NCBI GenBank assembly: GCA_943354475.1
Contig: CALRBT010000009.1
Location: 1 to 46,010 of the forward strand
DNA length: 46,010 nt
Source: Parcubacteria group bacterium
GTDB taxonomy: Bacteria; Patescibacteriota; Minisyncoccia; Phycocordibacterales; CALRBT01
Direction: 5' to 3'
Shown: positions 31,991-39,857 of the stretch, in pieces
Layout of the letters: each line of letters opens with the position of its first letter
How positions within the stretch are numbered: position 1 is the first letter of the stretch
The notes under the pieces: generated by a model
Told to the model about the DNA's origin: nothing
What the model saw: the letters and a program-made list of their open reading frames with translations, nothing else
Database searches by the model: none
Made by a program: the position numbers and the translations under genes

Positions 31991-32064
31991 TGGGGGATCG
32001 TCTAATGGTAGGACATGGGCCTTTGAAGCCCAGTATTTAGGTTCGAATCCTAGTCCCCCAGCCA
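31991..32064 (+). tRNA. tRNA-Gln(TTG), CCA encoded
   Basis: TGGGGGATCGTCTAATGGTAGGACATGGGCCTTTGAAGCCCAGTATTTAGGTTCGAATCCTAGTCCCCCAGCCA; loop CTTTGAA. Confidence 0.93.
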
Positions 32065-32176: not shown

Positions 32177-33463
32177 TTATTCCATCGTTACCTTTTTATC
32201 CTTAAGAAATAGTTTGCTTTGCAGGCATCCAAGCAGTTCTCGTTTCTCAATCAGCGTCCCTTCCTTGAGTAAGTACTTCGTGTAATTTCTCACGTCGACA
32301 TCGATCTCAATTTTGTCTTGCTTGTGTCCTAGCACTCCTGATCTAAATTTGTTGAACCTATTTATCTCATCCTCGATTCTTGCTCGTACCCCAAGCTCAT
32401 CTAGGTTTACCGTATCCATCAGTCCAATCAGTTCTTCGATTAAGCTTGGCTCATTGATAGCTGGATTTTTGCAGTCGATGTTCCGGGCCTTCGTGCAGAA
32501 GTAGTACACATGTCTGTTCACTCCACCGTCTTTCAGTTTCTTGAATTTCTCATCTGCCGATATTCCTGATCCACAGTGTCCGCATCGTATCAGCTTGGTG
32601 AAGGCGAACTCTTTGCTTTCAGTCTTCGGTATGTAGTTCGCATTCAAAGTCAGCTGTACTTTTGTATACAGTTCTTTATCAATTATCGGTGTATGTTTTC
32701 CTGTGTACCATTGACCCCCACCAACTGGGTACTCGAAGTCACCGTAGTAGAACGGGTTCCGCAAGATGATGTAGATGTTTGCGAGTACGAGTGGTTTTCC
32801 GCGATGCGTTTTGAAGTCTATTTCTCTAAGCCATCGGTATACCTTTCTTCCACTCCATTGTTCGTGAGCCACTTTCTCAAACATCTGCTTGATAACTGGT
32901 CCACGCTTGAGGTCTATCCTGCACTGACACTTTTTGTCGACGTGTTTTTCGTTCAGGTATCCCGTCGGAGCAACCCCTGGTCTCCAGCCCATCTCGCATC
33001 GTGTCCGTAGTCCGCGCTTCACATTCACCGCCTTGTTGTCGTTCTCAAGTTTCGCCTGACTTCCAAGAATCATCAGAAGGAATTTCTCGTTCGGATTATT
33101 AGTGAACTTTTGACTATATGTTCGTATCTCGTGCAAAAGTTTTTGATCCATCAGGTCTACCACTGACCCGAGGTCTCCAGCATTTCTACTCAACCTATCT
33201 GGTGCCCATGTGAGAATTGCATTGAATTTCTGCGAACGTAACTCCTCGAGCATTTTGTTGTAAACGGGTCGTTGCCCAACCTCCTTGGAAGAGTGCGACT
33301 CACGCTTTATCTCGACCACATGCAGATGCTCGCGTTCAGCCAGCACCTGCATTTCCTTTACCTGTGACTCTATTGAAAGAGCCTGCTTATCCTCAGCCTC
33401 GGTACTCTTACGTGCATAGAGGCAGTACCGCAAGACCTCTTCTTTTGGTTGTGTCTTTTCCAT
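32177..33463 (-). CDS. Serine recombinase with zinc beta-ribbon
   Basis: YCLYARKSTEAEDKQALSIESQVKEMQVLAEREHL...TWAPDRLSRNAGDLGSVVDLMD...IRCGHCGSGISADEKF. Confidence 0.95.
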   Translation of the reverse strand: MEKTQPKEEVLRYCLYARKSTEAEDKQALSIESQVKEMQVLAEREHLHVVEIKRESHSSKEVGQRPVYNKMLEELRSQKFNAILTWAPDRLSRNAGDLGSVVDLMDQKLLHEIRTYSQKFTNNPNEKFLLMILGSQAKLENDNKAVNVKRGLRTRCEMGWRPGVAPTGYLNEKHVDKKCQCRIDLKRGPVIKQMFEKVAHEQWSGRKVYRWLREIDFKTHRGKPLVLANIYIILRNPFYYGDFEYPVGGGQWYTGKHTPIIDKELYTKVQLTLNANYIPKTESKEFAFTKLIRCGHCGSGISADEKFKKLKDGGVNRHVYYFCTKARNIDCKNPAINEPSLIEELIGLMDTVNLDELGVRARIEDEINRFNKFRSGVLGHKQDKIEIDVDVRNYTKYLLKEGTLIEKRELLGCLQSKLFLKDKKVTME

Positions 33464-33528: not shown

Positions 33529-34191
33529 CTATTTGCCTTCCAAACGCCTCTTGAAATTCTTATACTCAATGCTGTTTATATCCACACCCTTTTTCACTGG
33601 TCGTTTTTGTGGCTCCTCAGCAACTTTCTTTTCGGTAATCGCTTTCTCTGACACGTTGATTCTTTTCTGAGCTTCTTTTAACGTCTCATTCATCCGTTCC
33701 TCCTCTTCGGGGTCTTCAGGCAATGGTGTTCCTCCTGCTTTTTTAATCATGATGTTCCTTCCAAGCGATGTGAGTCGTCCTGCATTGAACAACGCTTTAG
33801 CGATAGATATCTTCTGCTCAGAAGTGAGCTCTTCTTCGATAAACTCATGTTCGTGTCGGACACGGTCGCAGTATTCTTTATGGTGGTTCTTCAACCAAAA
33901 GATAATGGCAGTGTTGTTACCACTTTGAATGTTCTGGATGAGCTTGGACTCTGCCATGTCGTTAATGAAGAACGTACCAGACTTAATCGCTTCGTCGGCT
34001 TCCTTCGCAAAAGATTTGTCTTCCTTTCGCCACGAATAATACGTCGAACGACCGACACCTGATTTCTCGCAGGCGACTTGTACTATCGGATACTTTGGAA
34101 GCTGTCCGAGGAACGCTTCTTTCTGCGACTTCGTTTTAACAGATAGAGTCTCCAATCGCTTCTCCGTTTTGTTCTTTTTGGGAGAAGTCAT
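33529..34191 (-). CDS. HTH protein resembling a phage terminase small subunit/phBC6A51-type protein
   Basis: KEAFLGQLPKYPIVQVACEKSGVGRSTYYSWRKEDKSFAKEADEAIKSGTFFINDMAESKLIQNIQSGNNTAIIFWLKNHHKEYCD. Confidence 0.7.
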   Translation of the reverse strand: MTSPKKNKTEKRLETLSVKTKSQKEAFLGQLPKYPIVQVACEKSGVGRSTYYSWRKEDKSFAKEADEAIKSGTFFINDMAESKLIQNIQSGNNTAIIFWLKNHHKEYCDRVRHEHEFIEEELTSEQKISIAKALFNAGRLTSLGRNIMIKKAGGTPLPEDPEEEERMNETLKEAQKRINVSEKAITEKKVAEEPQKRPVKKGVDINSIEYKNFKRRLEGK

Positions 34192-34196
34192 AGAAG

Positions 34197-35519
34197 TTAG
34201 TTAATCTTCTTAGCCTTCTTGCCAGTATGCTTTTCCCACCTACCTTTTATCACTTCCGTATATGTCGGAGACTTCTCCATGATTCGGCAGTTACGTCCAA
34301 GCTTGAGTGATGCGATGAGTGTTGAACCGCTTCCACCGAACGGCTCAAGTACCAAGTCACCACGCTTGGTTAAAACTTTGATGTACGGAATTAACAACTC
34401 TAACGGCTTAGTACCGAAGATCACTCCCTGACCACTGGATTTTTCATCAGCAGCGATATGGTCGATGAAATCTGTCGGTTGATACTTCTTTCCTTTCTCG
34501 TATCCTTCCCACGTTGGCTTGCCACTCGTTGCATACAAGGCATTCTCATACTCGTTCTGGAACAGCTCGTCTTCTGGCTCTATGTTCAGTTCTTTACCTT
34601 CGCTTGAACCCACAAGAGCGATGTCTTGTTTGTTAAAGAATTTGTACTTTGCAGAGAAACCTTGTACTCGGTTCGGCACGTGCCACGTGATGGTGTTGCG
34701 ATAACGCCAATGTGTCTCGAGCACGTTCCAAATTGTCCGCAAGTTCTTTGGGTGCTCGAAGATGATGATGCTGAAGTCTGGCTTCTGAACCTTTGCGACA
34801 TTCGCCATCCAAAGCTCAGTGAAGTTATCTGGCAGTACGTCTGTCTCTAGGTACTTACGATTCTTCTTGAGTCCGAATCCTTCAGTAACTCCGTCTTTCT
34901 GCTTCGTTTTTCCTTTCAAGTAATCGAGTATGTATGGTGGGTCAGTCATCACCATATCTGCCTGCACACCTTCCATCAGTTTCAACGTGTCTGCTTCGAT
35001 ACAGGAATCGCCACACATGAGTCGTGAGCCATCAATTTCGTATATGTCACCCTTTTGAACTTTGATGTCGTGGATGTTTAGTTTCTCCAGTTCATTCTTC
35101 AGGTTGAATACTTCTGGTGTTGGGTCGATGGCGAAGATGTTGTCCAATTCTTCCGTGGTGAATCCGACACTGCCCAAAAACTCTTCACCGAAACCTTTAA
35201 GAAGTTCAAAGTCGAACTCACCAAGATTTTTATTGAGCCTCACGTTCAGTTCTTTTTCCTTTTCAATATCCGCAATATTCACGTAGAGAACTGGCATCTC
35301 CGTGAAGCCAAGTTCTTTTGCAACTGCCAATCTAAAATGACCACCGATTACAGTATTCATTCTCTCGGGTGCAGAGTTGCAAAGAATGGGGTCAACGAGT
35401 CCGAATTTAGTAATTGATTCTTTGAGTGCATTAGTCTGCGCTTCATTCCACTTCCGTGGGTTGTATGTACTCGGGTTTAGAGAACCAACGGGTACATACG
35501 TAACTTTCATAGTTTCCAT
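34197..35519 (-). CDS. ParB-N domain fused to a DNA methyltransferase (phage-type)
   Basis: ParB-like VPVGSLNPSTYNPRKWNEAQTNALKESITKFGLVDPILC...VIGGHFRLAVAKELGF; methylase DMVMTDPPYILDY and LVLEPFGGSGSTLIASLKLGR. Confidence 0.92.
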   Translation of the reverse strand: METMKVTYVPVGSLNPSTYNPRKWNEAQTNALKESITKFGLVDPILCNSAPERMNTVIGGHFRLAVAKELGFTEMPVLYVNIADIEKEKELNVRLNKNLGEFDFELLKGFGEEFLGSVGFTTEELDNIFAIDPTPEVFNLKNELEKLNIHDIKVQKGDIYEIDGSRLMCGDSCIEADTLKLMEGVQADMVMTDPPYILDYLKGKTKQKDGVTEGFGLKKNRKYLETDVLPDNFTELWMANVAKVQKPDFSIIIFEHPKNLRTIWNVLETHWRYRNTITWHVPNRVQGFSAKYKFFNKQDIALVGSSEGKELNIEPEDELFQNEYENALYATSGKPTWEGYEKGKKYQPTDFIDHIAADEKSSGQGVIFGTKPLELLIPYIKVLTKRGDLVLEPFGGSGSTLIASLKLGRNCRIMEKSPTYTEVIKGRWEKHTGKKAKKIN

Positions 35520-35858: not shown

Positions 35859-36135
35859 GTAGCAAATTTTTTGCTACAATTCAGTTACAACTGAATAAGT
35901 CGTCGACCTAACCCCTTTGGAATCCCCAAAGGATATGGTCGCAAATCCGTCCAAAGTAAAGAACTCCTAATCAGAGCTACTTTGGACGGTCATATCTCGA
36001 AAGGGGTATGGGTGTACCTCACGGGGTGCATCGGCCTGGTTAGGAGCTTTTTGCTACCTACTGGGCGAACAAAACCGTCCAAAGGAAGCTTCCTCATATG
36101 AGGATTCGACCTTTGTGTCGAGTCGGCATATGGGG
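35859..36135 (+). ncRNA. Candidate structured non-coding RNA/element, orientation uncertain
   Basis: 12-bp perfect stem ccgtccaaagta (35946-35957)/tactttggacgg (35977-35988). The stem's loop ctcctaa (35963-35969) can pair with ttaggag (36040-36046), a pseudoknot. Also CGACC/GGTCG + CCTTTGG/CCAAAGG and palindrome TCCTCATATGAGGA. No convincing ORF. Confidence 0.45.
35885..35955. repeat. Direct repeat 1 flanking the DGR segment
   Basis: tacaactgaataagtcgtcgacctaacccctttggaatccccaaaggatatggtcgcaaatccgtccaaag; 67/71 identical to 39137..39207, no gaps (constant offset 3252). Confidence 0.92.
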
Positions 36136-36143
36136 ATTTTGTT

Positions 36144-37193
36144 TTATTCATTCAGCCAGAACCAGAACAAATTCCTCACGCTCTTGGTCATCTCGTAAGT
36201 GTCGGCATGTGACAGAACGCCCAAGTATGAGGCGAGAGAGGACTTCATCGCCACCTCGTTTATCTGCCCGTTCTTGTAGCGTGCCACGCTCTGACGAATT
36301 TTCTTGGGAATCTTGCGCTTCGTTTTCGTGCGGAGCTTGATGTGGTGCGGAAGTATCACATACCCGAGAAAATCGACACCTTGAATATGTTTCTTCAAGA
36401 TTATCTTCTTAGGGTGCAGGTCGAGATGAAGTCTTGATTTCAGGAATTCTCGTATTGGTTCAAGTAGTCCTTCAGGGTAAGCCTTGTTGTCCGAAACGAT
36501 CACAAAATCATCGGTGTAACGCGCGTAATTTTTCACTTTCAATTTATGCTTCATAAACTGGTCGAATTCATTCATGTAAATATTTGCAAATACCTGCGAG
36601 GTGAGATTGCCGATTGGCACGCCTCTGCGCTCGAAAAGATTCGGACGGCTTGTTTCAAAACTCTCGATTATCTCGTACAAGAGATTGAAAACTTTTTTGT
36701 CTTTCACTTTCTTGCCAAGAATTTCAAGAAGCGTGTTGTGATCTATGGAATCAAAAAACCTTCTCACGTCGCACTTAAGAGCAAGGCATGGATGCGTGTG
36801 ATTTTTGCTGACAGCACGAATCATGCTGGCAACTTTCTCCATGCCCTTGTGTGTTCCTTTGCCAATTCGGCAGGAATACGAATCGTTGATGAAAGTCGGC
36901 TCGAATATGCGGTTCAAAACATAGAACACGGCATGATGAAGCACTCTATCCCGCACCGTAGCCTTGTGGATTCGACGAAGCTTTGGGTCGTGAATCCAAA
37001 ATCCTCGGTATGGTCCATGCTTGTACGTTTCATTTTTCAAATCTCTATACAAGTCAAAAATATTTTGTTCAAGATTCAACTCAAACTCGGCAACGTCAGG
37101 CTTGTTGCGTTTGTCGGACTTGAATATCTCCCATGCACGAAAGAGCGTTTGGGGAGAAATTATCGACCAATATAAATCTTTATAAATTTTCAT
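36144..37193 (-). CDS. Diversity-generating retroelement reverse transcriptase
   Basis: ALKCDVRRFFDSIDHNTLLEIL...RRGVPIGNLTSQVFANIYMNEFDQFMKH...YARYTDDFVIVS; (I/V/L)GxxxSQ motif characteristic of DGR RTs; adjacent TR/VR pair. Confidence 0.96.
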   Translation of the reverse strand: MKIYKDLYWSIISPQTLFRAWEIFKSDKRNKPDVAEFELNLEQNIFDLYRDLKNETYKHGPYRGFWIHDPKLRRIHKATVRDRVLHHAVFYVLNRIFEPTFINDSYSCRIGKGTHKGMEKVASMIRAVSKNHTHPCLALKCDVRRFFDSIDHNTLLEILGKKVKDKKVFNLLYEIIESFETSRPNLFERRGVPIGNLTSQVFANIYMNEFDQFMKHKLKVKNYARYTDDFVIVSDNKAYPEGLLEPIREFLKSRLHLDLHPKKIILKKHIQGVDFLGYVILPHHIKLRTKTKRKIPKKIRQSVARYKNGQINEVAMKSSLASYLGVLSHADTYEMTKSVRNLFWFWLNE

Positions 37194-37195
37194 AT

Positions 37196-37546
37196 ATGAA
37201 TGACTTAGACATACCCATTTTCAAGAAATCCTACGATCTATACAAGGAGTTTTACGCTCTCCGACTTGCCGTACCAAAGCAAGATCGGTATACCCTTTGG
37301 CAAAAGTGCGAGAGCCTTCTGATCGAGGTGTTGGAAGGTATACTTTTTGCAAGTCAGCAGTCTAAATCGGAGAAGTTACCGACTTTGGAGAAGACAAGTG
37401 TCAAACTTAATTTTCTGCGAGTCTGCATTCGTCTGATGAAGGACATTAAGGCAATCGATGCCAAAAAATATATTATCATCGAAGCAAATCTCGACGAAAT
37501 AGGAAGGATGCTTGGAGGCTGGATAAAATCCACAAGAGAACGTTAA
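37196..37546 (+). CDS. Avd-like accessory protein (four-helix bundle, S23-like)
   Basis: MNDLDIPIFKKSYDLYKEFYALRLAVPKQDRYTLWQKCESLLIEVLEGILFASQQSKSEKLPTLEKTSVKLNFLRVCIRLMKDIKAIDAKKYIIIEANLDEIGRMLGGWIKSTRER; next to the DGR RT. Confidence 0.88.
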   Translation: MNDLDIPIFKKSYDLYKEFYALRLAVPKQDRYTLWQKCESLLIEVLEGILFASQQSKSEKLPTLEKTSVKLNFLRVCIRLMKDIKAIDAKKYIIIEANLDEIGRMLGGWIKSTRER

Positions 37547-37549
37547 CAG

Positions 37550-37577
37550 AAACTCCCACTTTTATCGGTGGGAGTTT
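37550..37577. terminator. Hairpin terminator after the Avd gene
   Basis: aaactcccac-ttttatcg-gtgggagttt. Confidence 0.8.
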
Positions 37578-37598
37578 CCTTGGATAGAGCTATGACTG

Positions 37599-37714
37599 CC
37601 GGGCAGCCGACACGCCGATGTTGTCATTGCGGTTGTCGTCGTTCCAGTTGTTGACGTTGAGACCCTTGGCATCGAAGTTGCCGACGTTGACACGGTTACC
37701 GTCCGAGTCGAGAT
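37599..37714 (-). repeat. DGR template repeat (TR)
   Basis: 116 nt, aligns gap-free (offset 474) with 38073..38188. All 19 substitutions fall at A on the minus strand (19 of 30 adenines, 0 of 86 other bases). Many AAC codons. Confidence 0.97.
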
Positions 37715-37993
37715 ATTGCTCGTTTCCATCCGTGTCACCGAGAATCGAGGTTTACTACCTTTGCAGGTCTATATCCTCCCATCTCTGAATTGTATTTGAG
37801 AGCAGTTTTTTCAAACACCTCCACAAGAAACAAGCAAGAAGTTCTCTCTATCCTTAATCGCACTCTGCCGTAATCCGTGGACTACTAGCAATCTGGCGAT
37901 ATCTCAAGGTGAGATATCTCGCGAGCTTGAACCGTGATCCAAGCTACATTAGCAAGATAAAAATATATTAGCTTCATTTTTATGAAAAAGAAA

Positions 37994-38025
37994 GAGCCTC
38001 CGCAAAAAAAATTTCGCGGAGGCTC
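37994..38025. terminator. Hairpin downstream of the DGR target gene
   Basis: gagcctccgc...gcggaggctc. Confidence 0.75.
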
Positions 38026-38063
38026 AAGTATTCAAGAGGGACAAGCCCTCAAGGGATCAAGAA

Positions 38064-38831
38064 TCACTGCTTCCGGGCAGCCGACACGCCGATGCTGCCA
38101 TCGCGGCCGCCGTCGTCCCAGCCGTAGACGTAGAGACCCCCGGCATCGAAGCGGCCGACGCCGACACGGTCACCGCCCGAGTCGAGATCGACGCACCGAA
38201 CGTAGATTTTCTCGAACAAACACTCCCCAGTGGCGAGGAAGTGACCGATCGTGGCATAAACCACGATCCGAGCAGTCGGCGTTTCCTCGTCTTTCGGGAG
38301 GAGAGCCTGCTGATCGTTCCACGTCTTCGAGGTCGAGTTGGCGATCGGTTCCTTGCGGACCAACCGCCAGCCGACTTCGCCCTTGTCCTTGGCGAACGCC
38401 TGCTTGTCATACCAGTCCTGTGAGTAAAACAGGGTCCGGTCGGACTGCTTCTTGGCGATGCCACGGATGTCGAGGATCGACAGCGGGAAGGCGGCGACGA
38501 GAACGTGCGTGTCCTTGCAGGACTTCAGCACTTCCTCGCTGAACGGAACTTCGGCCAGAGCGGCGAGCTGTTGCTTCGTGGCGTTAACCCCGAAGTGTTT
38601 GATCGCCTCCTCGATGCCGAAGTAGTTCGTGCCCATGATCTCGCGAGCGAGCTTCTGTGACGTTGACGGTTCATAACCGCCATTGACCATCAGTCGTGCG
38701 ATGTTCGCCACGAATGCGGGGTCTGTATTGATGCGGGCTGCGACTTCTTCGGCGTTGTCGCCGATCGCTACCCACAGACGTTGATTGGCGGCATTGATGT
38801 CGCCAGTGGGGACTTGAGTCCATGCTTTCAT
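38064..38831 (-). CDS. DGR target (variable) protein, probably C-type-lectin/FGE-like C-terminal domain
   Basis: 255 aa; C-terminus RCVDLDSGGDRVGVGRFDAGGLYVYGWDDGGRDGSIGVSAARKQ* coincides with the VR. Higher GC than flanks. Confidence 0.93.
   Translation of the reverse strand: MKAWTQVPTGDINAANQRLWVAIGDNAEEVAARINTDPAFVANIARLMVNGGYEPSTSQKLAREIMGTNYFGIEEAIKHFGVNATKQQLAALAEVPFSEEVLKSCKDTHVLVAAFPLSILDIRGIAKKQSDRTLFYSQDWYDKQAFAKDKGEVGWRLVRKEPIANSTSKTWNDQQALLPKDEETPTARIVVYATIGHFLATGECLFEKIYVRCVDLDSGGDRVGVGRFDAGGLYVYGWDDGGRDGSIGVSAARKQ
38073..38188 (-). repeat. DGR variable repeat (VR)
   Basis: See TR. The invariant 3' stretch ATCGGCGTGTCGGCTGCCCGG is the probable IMH region. Confidence 0.97.
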
Positions 38832-39136
38832 GATGTGCTCCTCTTTCTGTTAGCCTTTTTGAAATTATCTCGAAGGCGACTGGATATGAGCGTACGATCT
38901 CAAAATTACGTCTTGCCTCAGTTTGAGACGAGCTTTCTGGTCCCTGATTTAAGGCTCAAAAAGCTCGTCTCAAACAGTGATTCTGTATCAAAGAACTACG
39001 CGCACAGTATAGCAAAGAAATAGTTATTTGTCAATGACTTTGGCGATATGTCAATGTTGGCGACCAAGGCTTCGCAAAGGCCTATATCTAAGCTAAGGTA
39101 CTGACTAATACCATCAATTTTGGTATTATGTTCTAG

Positions 39137-39207
39137 TACAACTGAATAAGTCGTCGACCTAACCCCCTTGGAACGTCCAAAGGATATGGTCGCAAATCCG
39201 TCCAAAG
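39137..39207. repeat. Direct repeat 2 flanking the DGR segment
   Basis: tacaactgaataagtcgtcgacctaacccccttggaacgtccaaaggatatggtcgcaaatccgtccaaag. Confidence 0.92.
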
Positions 39208-39210
39208 AAT

Positions 39211-39857
39211 ATGAAATCCGTCCAACCCGATCAAGCGGGCAACCTTGAGTTTCTACAACTATACAAAGTTGAAGGCGAATTATTTTCGCTTTCTTCTGGT
39301 GTCGACATTTCCATACAGAAATATTTTCTTACGTTCACACCGTGGAAAGGTGCACCAATACCAAACACCTACAACAACAAACCAGTCATCGATTGGAACG
39401 GCGAGTCTGTATTTGCAGAACTCGCCGTTTTACGTTTATTCCAATCACATGACTGGTTGTTGACAAGGGTGTTGTTCAAGACATTGAAGAAATATTTGAA
39501 CAGATGTTCAAACTTAATTTTCCCATCGAAAAAGTTGTCCCTATTGTTGCTTATGGTTGGGATGACGAGACGTCAATGCGAGATAATAACACTTCGGCCT
39601 TCAATTATCGATTCGTGCAAGGGACTGAAATACTTTCAAATCACAGCTATGGTCGCGCGATAGATATTAATCCACTCTTCAATCCTTATGTGAAAGGTAG
39701 TGTTGTTCAGCCTCACGGTGCAACCTATAGTCCCGCACGATCTGGAACAATTGTAGATAAGGACTCTGTCGTATTACTCTTTGAAGGCGTCGGATGGACG
39801 TGGGGAGGACATTGGCAAAATCTCAAAGACTACCAACACTTTGAACGGACACAGTAA
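39211..39857 (+). pseudogene. Broken or chimeric ORF: N-terminal fragment followed in another frame by an M15-family peptidase domain
   Basis: Frame 1: MKSVQPDQAGNLEFLQLYKVEGEL...WNGESVFAELAVLRLFQSHDW. Other frame from about 39458: LVVDKGVVQDIEEIFEQMFKLNFPIEKVVPIVAYGWDDETSMRDNNTSAFNYRFVQGTEILSNHSYGRAIDINPLFNPYV...WTWGGHW. M15 frame closed upstream by TGA. Confidence 0.65.

Follow-up and report, generated by a model that had tools for sequence, protein, structure and literature searches.

A complete and very probably recently active Patescibacterial-type diversity-generating retroelement in a phage-like island

The window analyzed here is a 46,010-nt stretch of DNA from a Parcubacteria group bacterium (contig CALRBT010000009.1, assembly GCA_943354475.1). 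It encodes a reverse transcriptase (RT), an Avd accessory protein, a TR, and a target protein whose gene carries a VR at its 3' end (Table 1). A preliminary description made from the sequence alone had called this a complete diversity-generating retroelement (DGR), and we found all of these parts present and intact. The window genome (786 kb, 98% complete) has one RT gene, one target, and one TR/VR pair. The order of the cassette is target, TR, avd, RT, with avd inverted. All 16 relatives fetched have avd inverted as well, so this arrangement is normal for the Patescibacterial group rather than peculiar to the window. The loci of 13 of the 16 also have an adenine-only TR/VR pair in the same layout as the window.

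Table 1. Features of the DGR cassette and its surroundings in the window.
Feature	Position	Strand	Details
tRNA-Gln(TTG)	31991..32064	plus	apparent insertion neighbourhood
Serine recombinase, phage-integrase type	32177..33463	minus	phrog_95 2.7e-60; Resolvase/Recombinase; adjoins tRNA-Gln
Terminase small-subunit-like (TerS) HTH protein	33529..34191	minus	phrog_309 1.1e-10
ParB-domain DNA methyltransferase	34197..35519	minus	phrog_498 1.9e-75; PF01555, PF02195
LOOT RNA (RF03000)	35905..36032	plus	80.2 bits, gathering 46.4; converges on RT gene 3' end
DGR reverse transcriptase	36144..37193	minus	349 aa; IGNLTSQ and YTDDF; frame intact
Avd accessory protein	37196..37546	plus	116 aa; strand opposite to RT, TR, and target
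Hairpin 3' of TR	37550..37580		11 bp stem, fold z = -3.75
TR core	37599..37714	minus	116 nt, 30 A, 10 AAY codons (AAC or AAT)
Hairpin 3' of target gene	37994..38025		14 bp, 4-nt loop, z = -7.8
Target gene	38064..38831	minus	255 aa; VR at C-terminus; relatives L068/L201 81%, L071 40%, L070 35%
VR core	38073..38188	minus	differs from TR at 19 positions, each an A in TR
Inverted repeat upstream of target	38921..38975		19 bp
Second LOOT leader, truncated	39137..39207	plus	71 nt at 94%; ORF 39211 follows directly
M15 peptidase / endolysin-like	39504..39857	plus	PF13539 1.5e-23; PHROG endolysins

The YTDDF and IGNLTSQ motifs noticed earlier are both encoded in the intact RT ORF, and the latter, RT motif 4, fits the DGR pattern [IVL]GxxxSQ. 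The RT matches the profiles phrog_1423 (1e-112) and RVT_1 (4.6e-22). In the PDB it is closest to 8ub7, an entry labelled 'Reverse transcriptase' (5.5e-40), with LtrA far behind (4.7e-22). A phylogeny against DGR and group II clades had been proposed as a check. In our tree of 27 RTs with BPP-1, BalMu-1, and ANMV-1 and three group II intron RTs, a 100/99 split separates all DGR RTs, that of the window included, from the intron enzymes; the window RT groups with the Patescibacterial RTs. The small protein previously described as Avd-like scores above the cut-off for NCBIfam DivGenRetAVD (83.4 bits; cut-off 80) and matches bAvd PF22296 (4.9e-17); its gene is divergent from that of the RT.

Recomputed from the sequence, TR and VR align over 116 nt without gaps and differ at 19 positions (16 A>G, 2 A>T, and 1 A>C). 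As in the preliminary description, every one of these is at an A of the TR. A substitution at any other TR base had been named as evidence against a DGR; the re-alignment has none at the 86 non-A positions. With 30 A in 116 nt, the hypergeometric probability of all 19 mismatches falling on A is 1.9e-14. They hit 14 codons, all 14 non-synonymously. Of the 18 variable codons in the TR, just one can mutate to a stop. The TR translates as LDSDGNRVNVGNFDAKGLNVNNWNDDNRNDNIGVSAAR and the VR as LDSGGDRVGVGRFDAGGLYVYGWDDGGRDGSIGVSAAR. Past the core, the first mismatch is a C>A at an IMH-like 3' edge, directly after GCCCGG. In related genomes VR variation was likewise confined to TR adenines, with 185 A>G, 71 A>T, and 43 A>C changes in the relatives' TR/VR pairs. 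We considered an A>G excess peculiar to the window VR and rejected it (p = 0.053 versus the relatives). The hairpin 3' of the TR is a possible terminator, either of a TR RNA or of avd.

The VR begins at residue 215 of 255 in the target, an intact ORF, and thus covers its C-terminus as originally described. Sequence searches of Pfam, NCBIfam, PHROG, and PDB gave no match to the target protein, and no relatives of it were found in phages or IMG/VR. A fold prediction had been proposed to look for a CLec/FGE domain; the AlphaFold2 model, built from only 3 sequences, had a low mean pLDDT of 32.5. In a scan of one genome per species, the only close target relative with a full VR was L068 (81% identity). 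The hairpin 3' of the target gene, with a T-run after it on the minus strand, is kept in L068. The homology of relatives to the window ends at about 37991 in L068 and at 39015 in L069. Both ends adjoin inverted repeats, the latter lying just past the one upstream of the target. The target gene and its promoter may move as one unit.

The cassette lies among phage-like genes between the tRNA-Gln gene and a DUF4349 gene. In 13 of 13 same-order relatives, a holB-like gene and the tRNA-Gln gene are adjacent without the island genes. The DUF4349 and tRNA-Gln genes are 3.7 kb apart in one relative (G386) and 8.0 kb apart in the window. We conclude that the region was inserted. Features expected of a prophage or satellite are there: an integrase-type recombinase (phrog_95) by a tRNA gene (tRNA-Gln), a packaging-related gene (phrog_309), and a lysis gene (M15). 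The ORFs at 39211-39663 and 39504-39857, the second being the M15 peptidase, overlap in different frames and are possibly a single frameshifted gene. No capsid, tail, or large-terminase gene was among the ORFs scanned between the tRNA-Gln and DUF4349 genes, and a search for an att repeat of tRNA-Gln found none. For these reasons we call the region a phage-like island and not a prophage, and we only infer that the island, with its serine integrase, TerS, ParB-methylase, LOOT RNA, DGR, and endolysin, is or formerly was mobile.

Similar islands occur elsewhere. A 28-kb IMG/VR contig, IMGVR_UViG_3300000970_000154 (L142), encodes an RT with 60% identity, an inverted avd, a ParB-methyltransferase, a LOOT RNA, and a similar serine recombinase. 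Unlike the window, it has another target and type III restriction-modification genes between the RT and the LOOT RNA. An island with a ParB-methylase, a TerS-like protein, and a LOOT RNA recurs in Patescibacteria (L074, L087, L089, L090, L094, and L098), in most cases with a serine integrase near a tRNA gene. In L090 one neighbouring ORF is a weak large-terminase match. The preliminary description had the host diversifying the target protein now or in the recent past. Recent diversification is borne out by our analysis, but the host as its beneficiary is not, given the inserted island and the similar IMG/VR contig. As the cassette sits in a phage-like island beside tRNA-Gln, diversification may serve the element rather than the host.

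The LOOT RNA next to the RT gene belongs to an orphan RNA class, which we found in 83 of 380 Patescibacterial genomes sampled. Most LOOT loci are without a DGR, and LOOT as a general DGR component was rejected. A LOOT RNA lies less than 2.5 kb from a DGR RT in three places besides the window versus 0.75 expected (p = 0.04). At 27 LOOT loci, a non-random set with six fetched for a DGR RT on the same contig, a serine recombinase was nearby in 13 and a ParB-methylase in 7, compared with 0 of 13 control loci. We had also considered the 71-nt repeats at 35886-35956 and 39137-39207 as att sites of the DGR; both are instead LOOT leaders, one of them truncated.

Two features absent from the Rfam model were found in LOOT RNAs, with mismatched partners as the control. 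In the first, the central stem's loop is paired with a stretch lying immediately 3' of the model and ahead of a T-run (35905-36070 in the window; 68 loci). In 28 loci the mean pairing score was 26.6 versus 16.1 for mismatched partners, a value reached by 0 of 2000 permutations, and in 40 further loci it was 24.2 versus 15.1 (0 of 5000). Secondly, the central stem has a locus-specific 5' arm that is repeated a few dozen nucleotides further downstream, where the following gene starts, either on its start codon or shortly ahead of it. Repeats of at least 9 nt are present in 19 of 68 loci (7 of 28 and 12 of 40) and in about 1% of mismatched pairs (0 of 5000 for each set). Loci with the arm repeat include L086, L087, L071, L075, L153, L156, L162, and L190. 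Given the loop-tail pairing and the arm repeat at the start codon, LOOT appears to be a leader that acts in cis on cargo genes. The leader at 39137-39207 is without its 3' part, as expected from a deletion between the two arm copies. These observations provide a first testable idea for this RNA class.

A sister of the window cassette is encoded in genome G419 on two contigs, L068 and L201, that overlap by 83 nt. The contig on the L201 side has a second target, the TR, an inverted avd, the RT, and then the start of the L068 target. At first L068 appeared to be a target orphaned from its DGR. This was wrong, as the target is cut by the end of its contig and the DGR lies on the overlapping one. 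The G419 DGR has two targets (L201:1-129 together with L068): the first precedes the TR, and the second is 3' of the RT gene. It shares with the window an Avd with 91% identity, a TR identical at 112 of 116 positions, an RT with 77/66% identity by segment, and a target with 81% identity. It is unlike the window in having two targets and an RT gene put out of frame by a (GA)10 tract. We looked for a LOOT RNA near the G419 cassette and found none.

Both G419 VRs are adenine-only copies of one TR, with 15 changes in VR1 and 18 in VR2, all at A and none at other bases. The four differences between the G419 and window TRs (T>C, G>A, G>T, and C>A) are not at any A of the window TR. At these four sites the window VR has the window letters in all four cases and G419 VR1 has the G419 TR letters in all four. 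VR2 has the G419 letters at three; the fourth site is an A in the G419 TR and a G in VR2. TR letters specific to a lineage were thus found in VRs of the same genome only. The VRs of the window and L068 differ at 18 of 30 A sites versus 4 of 86 other sites, or by 29%, 26%, and 2.6% at codon positions 1, 2, and 3. Outside the VR the two target genes diverge by 12.5%, with 21% at codon position 3 and 7-9% at the others. As the VRs carry the letters of their own TR and differ from it only at A, each VR appears to have been copied recently from that TR, with mutagenesis at adenines. Most simply, both lineages have rewritten their VRs from their respective TRs, mutating adenines, since they split, and the pattern points to unidirectional TR-to-VR transfer in both. 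This comparison of TR letters between two genomes is stronger evidence for homing than adenine bias alone.

The tract in the G419 RT gene is one of many. A large number of RT matches broke at query residues 182-189, where the DNA is a GA microsatellite directly before motif 4. In 18 related RT genes a tract of 8-19 units, (GA)n or in one case (CT)n, is found there. Four are in frame (G033, G162, G324, and G053) and 14 are out of frame, with 10 of these 14 beside adenine-only TR/VR pairs. The window RT gene has no tract at 36600-36680 and reads FERRGVPIGN. In 380 genomes scanned for the pattern without selection, 13 had the tract, three in frame (G033, G162, and G324) and ten out of frame, and none had the reversed pattern. 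All the DNA fetched, about 1.35 Mb and enriched for RT loci, has 20 dinucleotide tracts of at least 6 units; 18 are before RT motif 4. Of the tract-free RTs tallied, 28 of 28 are in frame (26 distinct, since the window RT is counted in three overlapping loci). On an RT tree made without the tract columns, the presence of the tract changes about 11 times, at least 4 of them forced by well-supported branches. The window RT without a tract and the out-of-frame G419 RT with (GA)10 are sisters at 100/99.

Loci with a tract or G-run include L201, L247-L262, L264, and L063; in G306 a run of ten G is where the RT gene loses its frame. In L204, L205, L209, L210, and L073:3737 a short hairpin ending in AATC precedes the GA tract and another hairpin follows it, which would fit a tract that belongs to a small inserted element. 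In one genome (G254) the 5' end of avd has a (GA)10 tract (L074:849-868), placed between this gene and the divergent RT gene and possibly a second slippage-controlled site.

From these sequences, Patescibacterial DGRs are probably phase-variable hypermutators, in which replication slippage of (GA)n in a length-tolerant loop would switch the RT and with it targeted mutagenesis on and off at random. The tract would have been gained or lost repeatedly, the window being a tract-free, in-frame member and its sister in G419 being off. Slipped-strand phase variation would account for the mix of in-frame and out-of-frame genes, the largely preserved RT, and the recent writing of VRs. It is unlikely that the out-of-frame RT genes are instead assembly errors, dead genes, or cases of programmed frameshifting. 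The sequences are metagenome assemblies, in which a repeat could be misassembled in single cases, and the tract is in a loop of variable length. Against this, none of the 28 tract-free RTs tallied is out of frame, four tract RTs are in frame, adenine-only TR/VR pairs are kept in most of the out-of-frame cases, and the tract comes and goes on the tree. The sequence on either side of the tract also aligns with RT; two of the off RTs, however, have a stop between motifs 3 and 4. Text searches limited to open-access papers found no description of phase-variable DGR RTs. If DGR RTs are switched by slippage, the long-open question of what stops constant hypermutation in cells would become directly testable, and phase variation and DGRs, two classic sources of bacterial variation, would be joined in a single gene.

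Taken together, the window very probably encodes a complete, recently active DGR of the Patescibacterial type in an integrated phage-like island. Like the BPP-1 system, the RT with Avd would copy a TR RNA, misincorporating at template adenines. The cDNA would then take the place of the VR in the 3'-terminal part of the target gene, so that as many as 18 codons could change and the C-terminal scaffold IGVSAAR would stay fixed. The target is presumably a binding protein. A decayed DGR, with a VR written long ago and a cassette now defunct, is very unlikely. Such decay would be in keeping with clade 2 DGRs, restricted to Patescibacteria, having lower-than-average activity (Roux et al. 2021, PMC8144416). 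However, the RT and Avd ORFs are intact, and VR and TR are identical at 86 of 86 non-A sites, yet the rest of the target is 12.5% off the G419 copy. That another A-directed process such as adenine deamination altered a duplicated segment without reverse transcription is hardly credible; 16 of the 19 changes in the window are A>G, but A>T and A>C are also seen there and in the relatives, and a DGR-type RT and Avd adjoin the TR/VR pair.

Compared with known systems, the recently active DGR proposed here resembles that of Bordetella phage BPP-1 (brt, TR, avd, and mtd; NC_005357) in its RT motif, Avd, TR/VR pair, C-terminal VR, and adenine-only changes. The BPP-1 parts are all on one strand in the order mtd-avd-TR-brt, whereas the window has target-TR-avd-RT with avd inverted. 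By sequence search its target is unrelated to Mtd of BPP-1. With the clade 2 cellular DGRs of Patescibacteria/CPR (PMC8144416) the cassette shares its host group, RT type, and a target without recognisable domains. It is a well-supported novel example of an already known kind of element. Clade 2 has been described as almost entirely cellular (Roux et al. 2021, PMC8144416); the cassette of the window, in contrast, is a Patescibacterial DGR placed in an inserted phage-like island.
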